DNA of 38,329 nt from an uncultured Brachyspira sp. (lineage in GTDB: Bacteria; Spirochaetota; Brachyspiria; Brachyspirales; Brachyspiraceae), in NCBI RefSeq assembly GCF_944390845.1, contig NZ_CALXRM010000027.1, positions 1-38,329 of the forward strand, given 5' to 3'. Below, one piece after another: positions 3,616 to 32,120 of this stretch; the stretch's first letter is position 1, and each line of letters begins with the position of its first letter. The notes beneath the pieces were generated by a model. That model had not been told where the DNA came from. It searched no databases and worked only from the letters and a program-made list of their open reading frames with translations. A program made the position numbers and the translations under genes.

Positions 3616-4785
3616 TTAAAAAGCATTATAAAATAAAGGCATTATAAAACATACTATAAAAGCTATAATACCATAAACATATACATAATAGCTTCTATTG
3701 TTTGTTAATATAATGTCTTTTATATTTTTTATACTCTCTAATTTTTTTAATGATTTTATATTATCTAAAATTATCAAAATAAAATGAATAAGCATTATTA
3801 TATTTGTAAAAATCAAAGTTAATTTATTTGGACTTATTCCATATTCTTTTATTCTGTATATTGTAGAAGTTAAAATTATTATGTTAAAAATAAATGCTAT
3901 TACTGAAAACACAATATAAACTAATTTAGTGAATATGCTTGATTTATAATCCATTCTTACAAAAAATAAATTTACTGCACCTATAGCAAGAGCAACATTA
4001 TAAATTATAAAATTGACTCTAATATCATAAGGACTGCTATAAGCAATCATTGGCAATATTATAGAAAATAAATGCTTCACTATATTATATAAACTTATAT
4101 ACATTATTATTCTTGAAAAGTATATTGATATATTTTTTACATCTTTTTTATAAATAAAATAAATTACAAAAGGAGTAAAAGCAAATATATAAAATACAGC
4201 TAATATAAAAATATAAAAAATAATAGTTGTATCAGGCAATATATTTATAATAATTCCTTTAAATAAATTGATTACTCCAGCAAAAATCATCATAAACATC
4301 AAAGAAATAATTGCAGGTATAATAGAAGTTATTATCATTATATTAGCACTGAAGGTAAATGCCTTATTAATATCTTTATAATTTCTATACTGATTAAATG
4401 ATAAAGCAAACATTATAAAAAATATAATATCTAAAAATAAATTCTTATTCAAAATAGTATGAACAAAGAAAATTAATTTTTTATCTATATATATAATATC
4501 TTTAAATGTAAACTCTGAAGAAGGTATAAAAACGCTAAGAATACCTATAAACAAAAATATTAAAAAAGTTATAAATATATTTTTCTTATTATCTAAATTA
4601 AATATCAAAGAAAAACAAAATAAATAAAAAATCTTAAAAGCAAAAAAATAAGAGGTTATATCAGTAATTCTATAATCAGAATTAATACTTGAAGCAAAAA
4701 ATAAAAAATATATGGTAAAAGGCAAAACAGAAATCAATGCCGATACTATAATATTTTTTTGTAACGGTGTTTTTAAACTATTCAT
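3616..4785 (-). CDS. Polytopic membrane protein, 389 aa, unknown function
   Basis: Almost entirely hydrophobic, with about 11 predicted membrane segments separated by short Lys/Asn/Tyr-rich loops. No transporter, kinase or channel motif is recognisable. It is a paralog of the next gene upstream (4841-6121). Shared stretches include the C-terminus (VYGIIAFIVCF here, VYGVWAFIVCF there), a loop LFFVRMDYKSSIFTK / LFFVRPDYKSSIFTK, and the segment EYGISPNKL / EYGITPNKI. ATG 4785 is preceded by only a weak purine-rich AAGAAAAG site. The 55-base gap from the upstream paralog suggests cotranscription from the promoter at 6165-6193. Tail to tail with the second ankyrin gene. Confidence 0.82.
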   Translation of the reverse strand: MNSLKTPLQKNIIVSALISVLPFTIYFLFFASSINSDYRITDITSYFFAFKIFYLFCFSLIFNLDNKKNIFITFLIFLFIGILSVFIPSSEFTFKDIIYIDKKLIFFVHTILNKNLFLDIIFFIMFALSFNQYRNYKDINKAFTFSANIMIITSIIPAIISLMFMMIFAGVINLFKGIIINILPDTTIIFYIFILAVFYIFAFTPFVIYFIYKKDVKNISIYFSRIIMYISLYNIVKHLFSIILPMIAYSSPYDIRVNFIIYNVALAIGAVNLFFVRMDYKSSIFTKLVYIVFSVIAFIFNIIILTSTIYRIKEYGISPNKLTLIFTNIIMLIHFILIILDNIKSLKKLESIKNIKDIILTNNRSYYVYVYGIIAFIVCFIMPLFYNAF

Positions 4786-4840
4786 AATTCTTTTCTTGCT
4801 ATTTATTTTTTATAGATTATCTATTCAAACAAATAAAAAA

Positions 4841-6121
4841 TCAACCAAATAAACTATATAATACAGGTATTACAAAACATACTATAAAAGCCCAAACTCC
4901 ATAAACATATATATAAAACATTGATTTAGTATCTCCAATAGTGATTTCTTTTATATTGGAAATACCATCAGATTTTTTAAATATTATAAGTATAGATTTT
5001 ATATTGAAAAAGGTTATAAAAATCAAATTACCAAGCATAATTAAATTTGTACCTACTAAAACTATTTTATTTGGAGTGATACCATATTCTATTAATCTGT
5101 ATAAAGAAGAAGTTAATACTAATATATCAAAAATAATAGCTATTATAGGAAGTACAATATATAAAGCCTTAGTAAATATACTTGATTTATAGTCAGGTCT
5201 TACAAAAAATAAATTTAATACAATTACAGCAAGCATAATATTATAAAGTACGAAAGTCACTCTATTATCATAAGGTCTTATATCAGGCATTAATAAAAGA
5301 AGCAAAAGTACAAATATAAATAATAAACTAAAAGGCATTAATATTCTTGATAAATATATAGAAATTTTAGTTTTCATTTTTATATAAACTGTATATACCA
5401 AAAAAGGAAATATTGAACTTAAAAATGATATTGATAATAATATTAATTTAAATATAATTTTTTCGTCTAAGCTGCTGATAAGATCTTGTATTAATAATAA
5501 AACTATTACTATAAATACTCCAAATACTGATGATACTACAGCTGCTATTAAACCTGCAAATATTGATATATCGGCAGAAAATGTAAAGAACTCTGAAATG
5601 CTTTTTGAATTCAATACTTGAAAACCGTTATATGATAAGGCTATTATTATAAAAAATATGATAACAAAAAATAAATATTTAATATAATAGAACTGTGAAT
5701 ATACTCTTATGTTTTCAATGGTACCAATTGCTGCAAAGAAAATAGTACTTAAATTGACAATTGATACAAATAAAAAAGATAAAAATATTATAACAATATT
5801 TTTTAAATTAAACTTTGAATTAATATTAAATATCAAACTAAAACAGAAAAAATAAAATATATAAAAATAAAAACTATCTATAAAAAAAATATTCAAATCA
5901 CTAACAGAATCAACAATATCAATTAATTTAGAAATACTTAAATAAGAATATATAGTCATTGCTAATGATGCAATAAAACCTATAGCAATAATAATTAAAT
6001 TTGATATTAAATTATTTTCTAATATTTTGCCTATTTTTAAGTTTATATTATTTATTGCATTTATTTTTTCATTAGTATTGTTTGTATTGTTATTTTGAAT
6101 ACTATTTTCTTCTATACTCAT
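4841..6121 (-). CDS. Polytopic membrane protein, 426 aa, paralog of 3616-4785
   Basis: An Asn-rich cytoplasmic-looking N-terminus (about 35 residues starting MSIEENS) is followed by about 11 membrane segments. The C-terminal half aligns throughout with the downstream paralog. The frame is open to a TTG at 6193 and an ATG at 6184. I chose the ATG at 6121 because a near-consensus promoter (TTGACT 6188-6193, TATAAT 6165-6170) overlaps the upstream codons and would start the transcript near 6158, downstream of both alternatives; the Asn-rich start also fits better. A GGGG/GAG-type ribosome site precedes it. Function unknown; the pair may be a small lineage-specific membrane family. Confidence 0.8.
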   Translation of the reverse strand: MSIEENSIQNNNTNNTNEKINAINNINLKIGKILENNLISNLIIIAIGFIASLAMTIYSYLSISKLIDIVDSVSDLNIFFIDSFYFYIFYFFCFSLIFNINSKFNLKNIVIIFLSFLFVSIVNLSTIFFAAIGTIENIRVYSQFYYIKYLFFVIIFFIIIALSYNGFQVLNSKSISEFFTFSADISIFAGLIAAVVSSVFGVFIVIVLLLIQDLISSLDEKIIFKLILLSISFLSSIFPFLVYTVYIKMKTKISIYLSRILMPFSLLFIFVLLLLLLMPDIRPYDNRVTFVLYNIMLAVIVLNLFFVRPDYKSSIFTKALYIVLPIIAIIFDILVLTSSLYRLIEYGITPNKIVLVGTNLIMLGNLIFITFFNIKSILIIFKKSDGISNIKEITIGDTKSMFYIYVYGVWAFIVCFVIPVLYSLFG

Positions 6122-20050: not shown

Positions 20051-21802
20051 TTATTTTTCTATATACCAAGAAGGAGGATTACTTTCTATAGGCGAATTTG
20101 AAAAAGCATATTTCATATTAACATTTTCTCCTAAATTCCAAGATTCCAAATCCTGATTAAAATTAATACAATAGGCAAAGGCAAATGATATATCTTTTAC
20201 ATTAGAAAGATTCCATTTGTCTAAAGGCTGATTGAAACTTGAAGCCCCTTTAAACATTCCGTGTATAGATTCAATATTACTCATATCCCAATCATTCAAA
20301 GGCTGATTAAAACTTTTAGCTTCCTCAAACATAGAATATAATTTTTTTACTTTGCTTATATTCCATTTGGAAATATCCTGATTAAATGAATATGCATTTT
20401 CAAACATCCTTTCCATATTTTCAACATTAGAAACATTCCAATTACTTAAATCACTGTCAAAACTTGAACAATAAACAAACATAGAAGCCATATACTTTAC
20501 ATTAGAAACGTTCCAATTATTAAGAGGCTGATTGAATCTAGTACACCTGTAAAACATATATCTCATATTAATAACTTTAGATACATTCCATCTTTCTATA
20601 TTATGATTAAAATATAAAGCATTATTAAACATATTATGCATATCTTCTACGTTTGAAGTATCCCAAGTTTCTATGCCGTCAAATTTTTTAAGTTTTGAAT
20701 TCTGAAATAATCCTGACATATCAGTTATTAATCTAGTATCTATTTTATTAAATTTTACTTTTTCTTTTATCAATTTTAATAATTCTGCTTTGTCTTTAGG
20801 TTTATACTTTTCATCATCTTTTAATTCTATTTTTTTAGATTTTGATTTTTTATATTCTTTTATTATACTTTCTTTATTTTCAATTAGTTCTTTTAATTCA
20901 TCATAATAAGTATTTTCAAGTTTATTAATAAAATCTTTAAGTTTATTATATTTAATAACTTCTTTATACACTTCTTTTATATCACAGTTTTCAAGCATAT
21001 TTAAAAGTTTTTTCCTATCATTTACTTTTTTAGATATAAAATAAATATTTAATATAGATTTTATGTCTTTAAAAGAAGAAGCACCCGAAAAAAATTCCCA
21101 AATAGAACAGCCTTCATTAATGATCCAATTTTCTATAGAATAATTAAAACTTTCAGCACCGCTAAACATATGAGCAATTCTTCTTACATTAGAAACATTC
21201 CAACTATTGATATCCTGATTAAAACTTTTAGCTTCCTCAAACATAGCAGTCATCTCTTCTACTTTACTTACATTCCAATTATTAAGAGGCTGATTAAAAT
21301 TATAAGCTTTTGAAAACATACTTTCCATATTTTCAACATTAGAAGTGTCCCAATTATTTAAATTCTGATTAAAATTTATAGCTTTATAAAACATACATCT
21401 CATACTAAGTACATTAGAAGTATTCCATTTATCTAAAGACTGATTAAAACTTTCAGCTTCAGAAAACATAAACTCCATATCTTTTACATTAGAAACGTCC
21501 CAGTCATTTAAAGGCTGATTAAATTTTTTAGCACTTGAAAACATACCAGACATATTAGTAACTTTTGAAACATTCCAATTATTTATGTTTGAATTAAAAT
21601 AAGAAGCTCCCATAAACATTTCAGACATATCTGTAACATTTGAAGTATCCCAATTTTCTATGCCGTCAAAATTTTCTCTCTTGCTATTTGCAAATAAATA
21701 TTTCATATCGGTAATTAAACTTGTATCTATATCACCCAAATAAATATTTTCATCTTTTACTAATTCTTTTAATTCATCTTTAATTTGAGGTTTATATTTC
21801 AT
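20051..21802 (-). CDS. DUF285/BspA-like 25-residue-repeat protein, 583 aa, internally duplicated
   Basis: Two homologous halves. Each opens with a YKP...ELxxL(I/V)K segment and ID(T)xLITDM...LFxNSK...FDGIExWDTSNV, then has seven full 25-residue units of the form W-[ND]-[VT]-S-x-V-x-x-M-x-x-MF-x-x-A-x-x-FNQ-x-L/I and one degenerate unit. The halves (about 1-245 and 320-583) are joined by a Lys/Glu/Asn-rich helical linker. This repeat type is known from Brachyspira, mycoplasmas and other gut bacteria, and is described there as a horizontally spread amphipathic repeat. No signal peptide, lipobox or anchor is visible, so either it is cytoplasmic or it is exported by an unrecognised route. AAGGAA precedes ATG 21802. 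No terminator is evident after the stop. Confidence 0.88.
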   Translation of the reverse strand: MKYKPQIKDELKELVKDENIYLGDIDTSLITDMKYLFANSKRENFDGIENWDTSNVTDMSEMFMGASYFNSNINNWNVSKVTNMSGMFSSAKKFNQPLNDWDVSNVKDMEFMFSEAESFNQSLDKWNTSNVLSMRCMFYKAINFNQNLNNWDTSNVENMESMFSKAYNFNQPLNNWNVSKVEEMTAMFEEAKSFNQDINSWNVSNVRRIAHMFSGAESFNYSIENWIINEGCSIWEFFSGASSFKDIKSILNIYFISKKVNDRKKLLNMLENCDIKEVYKEVIKYNKLKDFINKLENTYYDELKELIENKESIIKEYKKSKSKKIELKDDEKYKPKDKAELLKLIKEKVKFNKIDTRLITDMSGLFQNSKLKKFDGIETWDTSNVEDMHNMFNNALYFNHNIERWNVSKVINMRYMFYRCTRFNQPLNNWNVSNVKYMASMFVYCSSFDSDLSNWNVSNVENMERMFENAYSFNQDISKWNISKVKKLYSMFEEAKSFNQPLNDWDMSNIESIHGMFKGASSFNQPLDKWNLSNVKDISFAFAYCINFNQDLESWNLGENVNMKYAFSNSPIESNPPSWYIEK

Positions 21803-25012: not shown

Positions 25013-26413
25013 TTATTTATTAGACAAATATTTATCTATACCAGCAGCAGCTCTTTTACCATCACCAATAGCAAGAATAACTGTAGCAGAACCACGAGCA
25101 GCGTCACCGCCTGCAAATACACCTTCTAAAGAAGTAGCACCTGTTTCTTCATCTATAACATAAGTGCCTTTTTTAGTAGTTTGTAACTCTGGTACTTTTC
25201 TTGAGATAAGTGGGTTTGGAGTAGTACCTATAGCAATAATAACTGCATCAACTTCTATATCTTCAGTTTTGCCTTCAACAGCAACTGGTTTTCTTCTTCC
25301 GTCAGCATCTGCTTCTCCAAGTTCCATAACTTGAGTTCTTACTGCTTTTACATTGTCGTTTTCATCGCCAAGAACTTCTAAAGGAGCTCTTAAGAATCTG
25401 AAATCAACACCTTCTTCCATAGCGTGATGTACTTCTTCTACTCTTGCTGGAAGTTCTTTTTCAGTTCTTCTGTAAATACAGTAAACTTTTTCAGCGCCTA
25501 ATCTAACAGCAGTTCTGCAAGCATCCATTGCTACGTTACCGCCGCCTAATACAGCTACTTTTTTATGTTTAATAATAGGAGTATCTACTTCAGGGAATTT
25601 ATAAGCACCCATTAAATTAACTCTAGTTAAATATTCATTAGCAGAATATACTCCGCAGAAGTTTTCACCAGGTATTTTTAAGAATACTGGTAAACCAGCA
25701 CCAGTACCTAAGAATATAGCATCATACTCTTTTCTTAACTCTTGGAAATCTAAAGAAATACCAGCAACTTCATTTATTTTGAATTTTACGCCATCTTTCT
25801 TAAGGTTTTCTACTTCATGAGCTACTAATTCTTTTGGTAAACGGAATTCAGGGATACCATACATTAATACTCCGCCAATTGTATGTAAAGCTTCTAATAC
25901 AGTAACATCATAACCTAATTTGATTAAGTCGCCAGCACAAGCCAAACCTGCAGGACCAGCACCTATTATACATACTTTTTTACCGTTTTTTTCTACTTTT
26001 AAATCTTCATGCTGAGCATGTTTTCTTTCATAATCAGCAACAAACATTTCTAATTTACCAATAGCAACTGGTTCGAATTTTTTACCAACAACACATCTTT
26101 GTTCGCATTGTTCTTCCTGAGGACATACTCTTCCGCAAGCAGCTGGCAATGCATTAGTTTCTTTAATTTTTTTAGCAGCTTCTAAGAATTTCTTTTCAGC
26201 AATAAGACTAATAAATTCTGGAATTTTTACCTTAGCAGGACAACCTTCCATACAATGAGGTACTTTACAATCTAAACATCTTAAAGATTCAGTATAAGCC
26301 TGCTCTTCTGTATATCCCAAAGGTACTTCTTTAAAATCTTTACTGCGTTCCTCCGGACTTCTAGTAGGCATTTGTTGTCTAGGTATTTCACCTAATTTTG
26401 ATCTTGGTGGCAT
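25013..26413 (-). CDS. gltD: NAD(P)H-dependent glutamate-synthase small-subunit-type flavoprotein, 466 aa
   Basis: N-terminal domain with two cysteine clusters for [4Fe-4S] centres (Cys 46, 49, 54, 58 and Cys 93, 97, 103, 107). Then comes an FAD site (GAGPAGLACAGDL near 152), an NAD(P)H site (GGGNVAMDACRTAVRLGAEKV) with YRRTEKELPARVEEV, and the C-terminal FAD motif GGDAARGSATVILAIGDGKRAA. Length fits the single-chain GltA/GltD-like family. No glutamate-synthase large subunit or NfnA-type partner is adjacent. It may therefore be a stand-alone NADPH oxidoreductase, pair with a subunit encoded elsewhere, or act in electron bifurcation. AGGAG precedes ATG 26413. It has its own promoter and terminator, so it is monocistronic. 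Confidence 0.9.
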   Translation of the reverse strand: MPPRSKLGEIPRQQMPTRSPEERSKDFKEVPLGYTEEQAYTESLRCLDCKVPHCMEGCPAKVKIPEFISLIAEKKFLEAAKKIKETNALPAACGRVCPQEEQCEQRCVVGKKFEPVAIGKLEMFVADYERKHAQHEDLKVEKNGKKVCIIGAGPAGLACAGDLIKLGYDVTVLEALHTIGGVLMYGIPEFRLPKELVAHEVENLKKDGVKFKINEVAGISLDFQELRKEYDAIFLGTGAGLPVFLKIPGENFCGVYSANEYLTRVNLMGAYKFPEVDTPIIKHKKVAVLGGGNVAMDACRTAVRLGAEKVYCIYRRTEKELPARVEEVHHAMEEGVDFRFLRAPLEVLGDENDNVKAVRTQVMELGEADADGRRKPVAVEGKTEDIEVDAVIIAIGTTPNPLISRKVPELQTTKKGTYVIDEETGATSLEGVFAGGDAARGSATVILAIGDGKRAAAGIDKYLSNK

Positions 26414-26876: not shown

Positions 26877-28622
26877 ATGAACGTAGATATAGGTAAATTT
26901 GCTGGTTTCTGTGATGGTGTAAAACATGCTGTAGAGAATACTTTTTCTCAAGCAGCTAAAAGTAATGATGAAATATATGTTGACGGACATTTAATACATA
27001 ATCCTCAGACTCTTGATATGTTGGAAAGCTCAGGCGTGAAAACTTATGAAGATGATGAGGATATGTCCGTTTTAAACGGAAAAACTGTTATTGTTAGGGC
27101 TCATGGAATATCTCCTGAAAGAAGAGAAGCCCTATCAAGTCATGCCAAAAAAATAGTAAATCTTACCTGTAAATATGTGGCAAAAATTCAAGGGCTTGTA
27201 AAAAAACATAGTTCATTAGGTTACAGAGTAATAGTTATAGGCAATCCAAAGCACCCGGAAATTATAGGTGTATGCGGATATGCTGACGATGTTTATGTTG
27301 TATACAAAGATGAAGACATAGATAAATTACCTAATGATAATAAAAAAACTCTAATAGTAGCTCAAACAACTTTACAAAAATCCATATTCGATAAATACAC
27401 AAATTTAATAAAAGAAAAATATCAAAATACTGAAATAATAATTAAAAATACTATTTGCGAAGCTACAGAACAAAGACAAAATGAAGTATTAGAAATAGCA
27501 AAAAGAAATGATGTTGTTCTTGTAATTGGAGGTTCAGAAAGCTCTAATACAAGAAATTTATATAATATAGCATCATCTATAAAACCGGCTTTTTATGTTG
27601 AATACAAAGAAGATTTAGATAATATAGATTTATCAGGATATAAAAATGTTGGTATTATGGCTGGGGCCTCTACCCCAGATTGGCTTATTGAAGATGTAGC
27701 ACAAACAATAAAAGATAAATATTCAAAACCTATTACAAGATTTATATCAAGAATATTTGACTTTCTTAATTATGGTTATATATTCTTTTCTGTTGGTGCC
27801 TTCTTAATGTCTTATGCAATATATGATATATTATCACAAAGTTTTCAATACAAAATAGGAATTATAATAGCAGCATACTATTTATATATGAGTTTAGGAA
27901 ATGGATACAGTAATTATACTATTAGAATAAGCGACAAGAGAAGATACCTATTCTATCAAAAGAATAAAGTATTCTTTATGGGATTAATAGCTATAAGTGC
28001 ATTATTAATGTTCTACTTTGCATATACAATAGACATTGGAATATTAATGCTCACAATACTATCAAGTCTTCTTGGTATAGGATACAATATAAGTTTTGAA
28101 AAACAATCAAGATTTGAAAGCTCATTATTCTTTAAATTATTTAGAAAACTTATACCATTTAAAGCAATAGTTATATCAGTGGCAGTTACTGTTTTATTAA
28201 ATGGTTCTATATTTCTAACTAATAGAGAAATAATAAAAGAAAAGCCATTCTCATATCTATTTTCAACAAGTATAGTATTTCTATTTATGTTTATAAGACA
28301 AGCATTAATAGAAATAAAATTCTCTCAAAGCGACAAAATAGCTGGTGCTGTAACTTTGACTACCTACATAGATTCAAATAAGTTAGCTGTAATAACAGGA
28401 ATAATACCAATGATTCTAGTTCTAATTATGTTAGCAGGAATTATAGCTGGAAGATTTCCATTAGAAGCAAATAGATTAAAATATTTTATACCAATAATCT
28501 ATAGCAGTATAATTTCGTTTGTAGTGATGAAAAAGAAGATTATAACAAGCAGACATTTATTTTCTATATTAATAGACTCGCCGCTTTATATATTATTTTT
28601 AGCAGCATTAATTAACATTTAA
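26877..28622 (+). CDS. ispH: IspH (LytB) fused to a UbiA-like nine-helix membrane domain, 581 aa
   Basis: Residues 1-280 are 4-hydroxy-3-methylbut-2-enyl diphosphate reductase, the last enzyme of the MEP isoprenoid pathway. The iron-sulfur cysteines Cys 12, 98 and 194 are present, as are the substrate-site residues His 41, His 76 (RAHG), His 126 and Glu 128 (HPEIIG), NTICEATEQRQ, GGSESSNTRNL and AGASTPDW. Residues about 295-581 form nine hydrophobic segments. Between segments 2 and 3, NYTIRISDKRR occupies the place of the UbiA NDxxDxxxD motif; after segment 6, IEIKFSQSDKIAGAVTL parallels the second UbiA Asp-rich motif. Both are degenerate, so prenyl-transfer activity is doubtful. Usual IspH length is about 280-320. 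The start fits the family, but no clear Shine-Dalgarno site precedes it; an overlapping eight-codon frame begins at 26870. Confidence 0.9.
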   Translation: MNVDIGKFAGFCDGVKHAVENTFSQAAKSNDEIYVDGHLIHNPQTLDMLESSGVKTYEDDEDMSVLNGKTVIVRAHGISPERREALSSHAKKIVNLTCKYVAKIQGLVKKHSSLGYRVIVIGNPKHPEIIGVCGYADDVYVVYKDEDIDKLPNDNKKTLIVAQTTLQKSIFDKYTNLIKEKYQNTEIIIKNTICEATEQRQNEVLEIAKRNDVVLVIGGSESSNTRNLYNIASSIKPAFYVEYKEDLDNIDLSGYKNVGIMAGASTPDWLIEDVAQTIKDKYSKPITRFISRIFDFLNYGYIFFSVGAFLMSYAIYDILSQSFQYKIGIIIAAYYLYMSLGNGYSNYTIRISDKRRYLFYQKNKVFFMGLIAISALLMFYFAYTIDIGILMLTILSSLLGIGYNISFEKQSRFESSLFFKLFRKLIPFKAIVISVAVTVLLNGSIFLTNREIIKEKPFSYLFSTSIVFLFMFIRQALIEIKFSQSDKIAGAVTLTTYIDSNKLAVITGIIPMILVLIMLAGIIAGRFPLEANRLKYFIPIIYSSIISFVVMKKKIITSRHLFSILIDSPLYILFLAALINI

Positions 28623-30443: not shown

Positions 30444-32120
30444 TTATTTCTTCTTAACGTATTTCTTTATGAATCTGCTTATTATCATAATGAATCCCAT
30501 TATAGCTGATATTACAAAACCTATCATTCCTACAATAGAAGTACCATGAAATAATGGAGGCATTTTACTTGCTATGATTAAAGCACTTGCCATTATAAGA
30601 GAAGCTAAAACTATAGAATAACTTAATCTGTCTGCTAAACCATCTAATGTATTAGCTAATGATTCTAAGTTTTTATGCTCTAGTTGAATTTTCATGCTTC
30701 CTTTCTTCATAACAGAAACTAAATCACCAAAATCTGCTGGAAGTTCTCTTAATATATGAGAATAATCAACTATTAATTTTTTTGCCTGTTTCAAAATATT
30801 ATTTGGCTTTATCTGTTCTTTTACATATCTGAATGCAAAAGGCTTAATATGTTCTATTAATTTAACATCTTTATCTAAATTTCTTGCTACACCCTCAAGA
30901 ACTATCAAAGATTTCATTAAAAGCATTATATTGCTAGGTAAAGTTAATCTAAAATCTCTTATTATACTTATAAGCTCATTAAATACATCTTCTATATTAA
31001 TATTATCCAAAGACATATCTATATATTTATTAACTAATATAAATATAGCCATATTAAATTCATCTATATTCTTAATCTCGCTATGATAACATAAATCAAG
31101 TATAGACTTAGATAATGCCAAATAATCTGCAGAACTTATACTCATAATCAAAGCAGAAAAAGCATCTTTAGAATTCGGAGGTATAAAGCCTATCATTCCA
31201 AAATCTAAAAAACATAAAACATTATTTTCTAATGCCATCAAATTACCTGGATGCGGATCAGCATGGAAAAATCCAAGCATAAATATTTGCTCTAATACAG
31301 CATCAATACCAATAGAAACAAGTTTTTTTCTGTCGTATCTTTCATCATCTGGAGATATATCTGATATTTTTACACCATCTATATATTCCATAGTTAATAT
31401 GCTTTTTGTACTGTATTCTTCATATATTTTTGCTATCTTTATATTCTTATTATCTTTAAAATATCTTGCAAATTTTAAAGTATTATTCTTTTCAAAATTA
31501 AAATCTAATTCCTGTAAAAGCTGACTTTTAAAAGCAGCTATCAATTTTTGAGGCTGCATCAAAGCAAATTCTTCATTATATTTTTCTATGATATTTGAAA
31601 GCCATATTATAACTTCTATATCTTCTAATATATTTTCTTCTATATTTGGTCTTTTTACTTTAACTGCTACCTTCTCTCCATTTTTCAAAATACCAATATG
31701 TACCTGAGATATAGAAGCACTTGCTTTTGGTTTGGTATCAAATGATTCAAAAACTTCATCTATCTTTTTGCCAAGCTCAGTTTCTATTATATTAATAGCT
31801 TCTTTTTCATCAAACGGCTTAACATGATTTTGAAGCTTACTTAATTCATCTGTAATGTCTTTAGGAAGTATATCATTTCTATTTGAAAGTATTTGTCCTA
31901 ATTTAATAAAAGTAGTACCCAAATCCTCACATGCCATTCTTATTCTTTCGCCTCGGCTGAAATTTCTTAGGTCTACACCTTTATATTTTATATTAATTTT
32001 ATCTATTGGATTTTTTATTATTTTTAAAATTGGAGTCATGGCTATGATATCTCTAAAACCATAAGCCATTATTATAGAAATTATCTCTCTAGCTCTATTT
32101 ATATATCTCATATTATTCAT
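30444..32120 (-). CDS. UbiB/ABC1/AarF-family atypical kinase, 558 aa
   Basis: Kinase-like fold of the UbiB family. KLGQ (73-76) in the N-terminal extension; the Ala/Ser-rich loop ASASISQVH (133-141); VAVKVKRP with the ATP-site Lys 154; LTMEYIDGVKISD; HADPHPGN (286-293); and LDFG (305-308). Two hydrophobic helices at the C-terminus anchor it to the membrane. The family acts in ubiquinone or other isoprenoid-lipid metabolism as an ATPase/kinase; the substrate here is unknown. ATG 32120 has an AGGGA site. It follows the phasin-like gene but is separated from it by a strong hairpin (32137-32182), so readthrough or an unseen promoter must supply it. Confidence 0.92.
   Translation of the reverse strand: MNNMRYINRAREIISIIMAYGFRDIIAMTPILKIIKNPIDKINIKYKGVDLRNFSRGERIRMACEDLGTTFIKLGQILSNRNDILPKDITDELSKLQNHVKPFDEKEAINIIETELGKKIDEVFESFDTKPKASASISQVHIGILKNGEKVAVKVKRPNIEENILEDIEVIIWLSNIIEKYNEEFALMQPQKLIAAFKSQLLQELDFNFEKNNTLKFARYFKDNKNIKIAKIYEEYSTKSILTMEYIDGVKISDISPDDERYDRKKLVSIGIDAVLEQIFMLGFFHADPHPGNLMALENNVLCFLDFGMIGFIPPNSKDAFSALIMSISSADYLALSKSILDLCYHSEIKNIDEFNMAIFILVNKYIDMSLDNINIEDVFNELISIIRDFRLTLPSNIMLLMKSLIVLEGVARNLDKDVKLIEHIKPFAFRYVKEQIKPNNILKQAKKLIVDYSHILRELPADFGDLVSVMKKGSMKIQLEHKNLESLANTLDGLADRLSYSIVLASLIMASALIIASKMPPLFHGTSIVGMIGFVISAIMGFIMIISRFIKKYVKKK

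Follow-up and report, generated by a model that had tools for sequence, protein, structure and literature searches.

The fusion gene and its IspH half

The window, i.e. the whole 38,329-nucleotide stretch of DNA analysed here, comes from the gut spirochaete Brachyspira and has B. innocens as its closest named relative (89%). Its list of open reading frames contains a single intact frame of 581 codons, with an ATG start, lying exactly at 26877-28622 on the plus strand. Its product begins with a complete IspH (residues 1-283) and continues as a hydrophobic, polytopic C-terminal domain (CTD) of 298 residues (284-581). The gene and its two halves are as follows.

26877..28622, plus strand: IspH-UbiA fusion gene, 581 aa (ORF list; similar frame in 26/26 Brachyspira genomes)
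26877..27725, plus strand: IspH (LytB) domain, residues 1-283, with Fe-S ligands Cys12, Cys98 and Cys194 (PF02401, TIGR00216, alignment to 3dnf/4h4c)
27726..28619, plus strand: C-terminal polytopic membrane domain, assigned to the remote UbiA superfamily, residues 284-581 (profile-profile comparison, PF01040 in orthologues, structural matches)

All 26 Brachyspira genomes searched carry the fusion as one open frame. This, together with a dN/dS of the CTD equal to that of the IspH half (see below), shows that the fusion is no artefact of assembly or frame.

The IspH half matches PF02401 (LytB/IspH) over residues 7-279 with an E value of 2.4e-81 (273 bits against a Pfam cut-off of 24.5), and its NCBIfam score with TIGR00216 is 266, above the cut-off of 187.9. 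Alignment to the Aquifex (3dnf) and E. coli (4h4c) enzymes shows retention of the ligand and substrate residues C12, C98, C194, H41, H76 and H126/E128 (HxE), as well as of the blocks QTT 163-165 (T165), SSN 222-224 and AGAS 262-265 (S265). The initial annotation had described this half as an intact IspH with all Fe-S cysteines and substrate residues, and both the family models and the alignments agree with it. PF02401 has only one match in the source genome, located in the fusion; IspH is thus single-copy and, as judged from sequence, the fusion is the only candidate for the HMBPP reductase here. Elsewhere in the phylum, genome G040 has a second, stand-alone IspH gene in a 330-aa frame besides its fused one (L090, L125), and G055 encodes a distant IspH-like protein (L157, about 4464-5430, minus strand; LYTB E 1.2e-9) that does not have the usual N-terminal cysteine motif.

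UbiA ancestry of the membrane domain

AF2 modelling of the CTD alone and of the whole protein, from a 14-sequence Brachyspira alignment, gave poor models: mean pLDDT was 47 for the isolated CTD, and values in the full-length model stayed below 50 across most of the domain. In the CTD, the low-confidence AF2 secondary structure contains about nine helices long enough to cross the membrane, and six distinct stretches exceed a strict Kyte-Doolittle cut (19 aa, 1.6); nine hydrophobic segments had been proposed at first.

Several null results would suit a polytopic family unrelated to UbiA. The CTD of the window has no match in Pfam and noise alone in NCBIfam, even at E 10, and searching PDB sequences with CTD profile A1 returned no UbiA and only a chance light-harvesting match. 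Searching the source genome with PF01040 at E 0.001 found nothing, including in the fusion CTD, which does not reach the curated cut-off. At the fusion locus of 12 of 29 Brachyspiraceae genomes (ten Brachyspira, G026 and G027), PF01040 gives sub-threshold matches (E 3e-6 to 6e-4). Against an unrelated family, two fusions from other spirochaete families score above the PF01040 cut-off of 34.2 bits (38.9 bits at L080 and 38.5 bits at L087). In profile-profile comparison (hhalign), the Brachyspira-type CTD matches the CTDs of other spirochaetes with an E value of 2e-22. These bridging CTDs in turn score 54.9 against canonical UbiA, compared with a maximum of 29.8 over 20 block shuffles and 19.8 for the reversed alignment. 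The Brachyspira-type CTD itself scores 32.0 against canonical UbiA, above both the maximum over 20 block shuffles (23.7) and the reversed alignment (22.9).

The best three structural matches (VIA) of the pLDDT-47 CTD model, 7bpu, 8j8j and 4od4, are all domain-wide and all from the UbiA superfamily (Z 9.6, 8.4 and 7.6), although Z values of 7.6-9.6 by themselves do not prove kinship for a helical bundle. Foldseek gave no significant match for the same model, with ApUbiA ranked first at E 4.5. Through the homology chain, the shuffled controls, the structural matches and the motif register described below, a remote UbiA homology of the CTD is supported, and an origin from an unrelated polytopic family appears extremely improbable.

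Motifs and conserved residues

The counterparts of the two UbiA aspartate-rich motifs, and other conserved positions of the CTD, were tabulated over 33 spirochaete fusions, 16 from the Brachyspira branch and 17 others.

27900..27935, plus strand: UbiA motif 1 counterpart, residues 342-353, NGYSNYTIRISD (canonical NDxxDxxxD; column table of 33 spirochaete fusions)
28074..28085, plus strand: invariant G400...Y403, closing a CTD helix and paired in the alignment with canonical UbiA's conserved Tyr (hhalign, column table)
28296..28346, plus strand: UbiA motif 2 counterpart, residues 474-490, RQALIEIKFSQSDKIAG, with invariant R474, the acid E479, Q484, D486 and G490 (profile alignment, column table)
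28575..28577, plus strand: conserved acid D567 in the last helix, Asp/Glu in every fusion reaching that column (column table)

Motif 1 of the window reads NGYSNYTIR, in which Asn342 is retained, Asn346 stands at the first acid position and Arg350 at the second. Asn342 is invariant across the 33 fusions. At the first acid position, every one of the 16 Brachyspira-branch CTDs has Asn, and 11 of the 17 others have Asp/Glu. At the second, the Brachyspira branch carries Lys/Arg (one Thr), and no acid occurs among the other 17. Motif 2 takes the form [E/D]479-x6-D486-x3-G490, such that its acids are 7 apart rather than 4 as in the canonical DxxxD, with the last Asp and the following Gly retained. 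The invariant R474 lies five residues upstream of the first of these acids. Remnants of both motifs had been proposed from the start to lie at the right places, and the profile alignment places N342, E479, D486 and G490 in register with canonical UbiA. A UbiA descent with altered Asp motifs is supported by the column table, the relatives above the PF01040 cut-off and the shuffled controls.

Only N342, G400, Y403, R474, D486 and G490 are invariant in an 18-sequence alignment of CTDs (positions converted to source numbering by adding 283), and most of these fall at or beside UbiA motif positions. The retention of N342, Y403, R474, [E/D]479, D486 and G490 at 27-85% identity suggests that a pocket has been selected, not an anchor alone; such a pocket in turn suggests ligand binding. 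In the established UbiA mechanism both motifs serve in binding Mg-diphosphate. Given the altered motifs, the Brachyspira form is unlikely to carry out ordinary catalysis; some catalysis could conceivably persist, two acids remaining in motif 2.

Selection, distribution and natural loss

Within the genus, across 19 pairs whose dS is not saturated, median dN/dS is 0.069 for the CTD and 0.070 for IspH, which indicates that the CTD is selected as strongly as IspH at this depth. In distant comparisons the CTD changes faster than IspH, e.g. dN of 0.40 versus 0.15 for G010. The possibility that the CTD is a decaying remnant was considered and is rejected by dN/dS. The term degenerate, used in the initial annotation, should be read with caution: the domain is under strong purifying selection and keeps invariant residues of its own in the sampled spirochaete fusions.

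A broader profile detects the CTD in up to 70 of 393 Spirochaetota genomes, and almost every one of these CTDs lies in a frame of 430-660 aa; the 70 include partial hits or ones with no visible IspH (G139, G073, G194 and G329). All 15 weak CTD matches of the first profile proved on reading to be IspH fusions, one interrupted by a contig end, and two further IspH fusions (G037 and G060) had been missed by that profile. Trees of IspH and of the CTD concur in two groups, Brachyspiraceae with families f2 and f12 versus the rest.

A natural loss is evident in G028, a Brachyspiraceae genome of 1.8 Mb from the same genus as G026. Its IspH frame of 309 aa ends at the fusion junction (L154:5459-6388), with the DUF4912 neighbour directly behind it. 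Since profile searches of the genome found no CTD elsewhere in G028, and its IspH nests among fused relatives in the tree, the CTD has been lost in this lineage. Presumably the G028 IspH works without it. As G028 lives with IspH alone, the CTD is not essential everywhere.

Genomic context and isoprenoid setting

In 20 spirochaete genomes from five families (f20, f41, f28, f46 and f9) the fusion closes a type II secretion (T2SS) pseudopilus operon, in the order gspG-H-I-J-K-L-M, gspN-like gene, IspH-UbiA, often with overlapping gene ends (loci L075-L080, L082, L084, L085, L087, L089, L155 and L169-L176; outer genes are missing at some contig ends). PF21687/PF03934 identified GspK and PilM_2 identified GspL, and a T2SSM match below threshold pointed to GspM; the names of GspG to GspJ and of the gspN-like gene come from position and similarity. 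The fusion lies outside a T2SS operon in families f38, f31 and f27, and GspK was not detected in Brachyspiraceae, f2 or f12, all of which have the fusion. The arrangement may be an old operon placement of an essential gene and not a sign of shared function.

The source genome encodes one trans-polyprenyl synthase and one cis-prenyltransferase as likely isoprenoid users. PF01040 gave no match outside the fusion in the source genome or in any of 29 Brachyspiraceae genomes, indicating that the family has no canonical UbiA; canonical UbiA is present in f2 and f12. Brachyspiraceae are therefore probably without quinones, and a literature search found no paper on Brachyspira quinones.

Other genes of the window were also inspected. 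An ABC1/UbiB-like atypical kinase (30444-32120, minus strand) occurs in all Brachyspiraceae sampled, despite their lack of a canonical UbiA. It was rejected as an operon partner of the fusion, being far away in several Brachyspira (about 90 kb in G007) and in other Brachyspiraceae. The divergent neighbour of the fusion (25013-26413, minus strand) carries Fer4_20 and Pyr_redox_2 domains of the glutamate synthase small-subunit type and is adjacent in some Brachyspira only. At 20051-21802 (minus strand) lies a 583-aa protein composed largely of DUF285 repeats in five stretches.

A proposed membrane-anchored IspH and alternative readings

The combined data may point, with a probability of roughly 0.45, to a membrane-anchored IspH whose UbiA domain is probably non-catalytic and binds prenyl phosphates. 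The N-terminal domain, as the only IspH of the cell, would carry out the last step of the MEP pathway, from HMBPP to IPP/DMAPP, and the UbiA-superfamily bundle would place it on the cytoplasmic face of the inner membrane. The CTD probably no longer performs Mg-dependent prenyl transfer, and its old active-site cavity may still bind a prenyl phosphate or diphosphate. Such binding could keep IspH close to the membrane processes that consume IPP (FPP and undecaprenyl-diphosphate synthesis) and so permit channelling; alternatively, it could tune IspH activity to the pool of long-chain products as a form of feedback. Plausible, if on the unlikely side, is a regulatory role in which the CTD, derived from UbiA, acts on IspH as a prenyl-phosphate receptor: a membrane sensor made out of a former prenyltransferase, providing product feedback on the last MEP step, retained by several families of spirochaetes and with one loss, in a reduced genome.

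It is unlikely that the protein is a bifunctional enzyme, with the CTD as a working prenyltransferase whose rewired active site transfers DMAPP, FPP or a longer donor onto an unspecified acceptor, as in the proposal of Rao et al. (PMC4746011) on the fusions of sulfate reducers. Strongly conserved pocket residues, purifying selection, the two acids of motif 2, the first motif-1 acid retained by 11 of the 17 non-Brachyspira-branch fusions and the two DXXXD repeats of sulfate-reducer versions (PMC4746011) would fit such an enzyme. With no other UbiA in Brachyspiraceae, any UbiA chemistry in the family would also fall to the CTD. Against this, the whole Brachyspira branch lacks both motif-1 acids and all 33 tabulated spirochaete fusions lack the second; in the established mechanism of UbiA enzymes, Mg-diphosphate is bound through both motifs. 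A partial search indicated no acceptor pathway. Similarly doubtful is a plain tether, in which the CTD only localises IspH, e.g. near a membrane-bound electron donor or IPP-using enzymes, and conservation of the pocket reflects folding. IspH needs reduced ferredoxin or flavodoxin, a reason for proximity to a donor, and the loss of the motif-1 acids, the faster change of the CTD in distant comparisons and the retention of IspH by G028 after loss of its CTD are all compatible with a tether. Yet phylum-wide conservation of Asn, Tyr, Arg and two acids at ancestral active-site positions would be unexpected in a domain that only anchors, as would a within-genus dN/dS as low as that of the enzyme half.

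The conserved T2SS gene order in 20 genomes could also mean that the CTD assists the secretion machine in other spirochaete lines, and that Brachyspira retained the gene after losing the system. As an essential housekeeping gene can occupy an operon without a common function, and as the fusion lies elsewhere in three families and accompanies no detectable GspK in Brachyspiraceae, f2 and f12, this link is very unlikely.

Animals have no IspH, which is an essential target for drugs; swine dysentery and human intestinal spirochaetosis are caused by members of the genus Brachyspira. If IspH is indeed membrane-bound through a former prenyltransferase that binds prenyl phosphates, the supply of isoprenoid precursors would be linked directly to lipid-carrier pools, and the CTD would be a natural case of a membrane enzyme converted into a receptor or scaffold. 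The G028 species, which has no CTD, and the forms within T2SS operons offer natural comparisons for the membrane-bound reading.

Comparison with known systems

The initial annotation gave known IspH fusions as involving ribosomal protein S1 and not UbiA. This does not hold, as IspH-UbiA fusions were published in 2015 with the same idea of membrane localisation and local supply: Rao et al. (PMC4746011) described 47 of them, 'all in sulfate-reducing bacteria', in which they noted two DXXXD repeats and predicted nine helices, and proposed membrane localisation with local provision of IPP/DMAPP. Both these fusions (also CDD PT_UbiA_5) and the Brachyspira form join IspH and then a UbiA-like domain in one polypeptide, in anaerobes. 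The sulfate-reducer fusions sit beside a separate UbiA/MenA (PMC4746011), whereas the Brachyspira fusion is the sole UbiA-type protein of its family. Set against the published description, the Brachyspira form has also lost the motif-1 acids and has [D/E]-x6-D in motif 2 in place of two DXXXD. The text of PMC4746011 makes no mention of spirochaetes, loss of motif-1 acids, absence of other UbiA, a T2SS link or CTD loss, and a literature search found no paper on spirochaete IspH-UbiA. What is new here is a conserved, altered form of a known fusion type across spirochaetes.

IspH-RPS1 fusions of Clostridia and Fusobacteria (NF000907/PRK00087) likewise have IspH as the N-terminal half, but their partner consists of ribosomal protein S1 repeats rather than a membrane domain. 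The best NCBIfam score of the N-terminal half described here is with this IspH-RPS1 model, below the model's cut-off.

Canonical UbiA proteins, represented by ApUbiA (4od4), DGGGP synthase (7bpu) and the membrane phosphoribosyltransferase 8j8j, show remote sequence similarity and, as judged from the low-confidence model, a putative fold similarity over the CTD, and have in common with it the motif-1 Asn, a Tyr, and the last Asp and Gly of motif 2. The CTD differs from them in that both motif-1 acids are replaced, the motif-2 acids are 7 and not 4 residues apart, Arg474 is invariant and the domain is fused to IspH.
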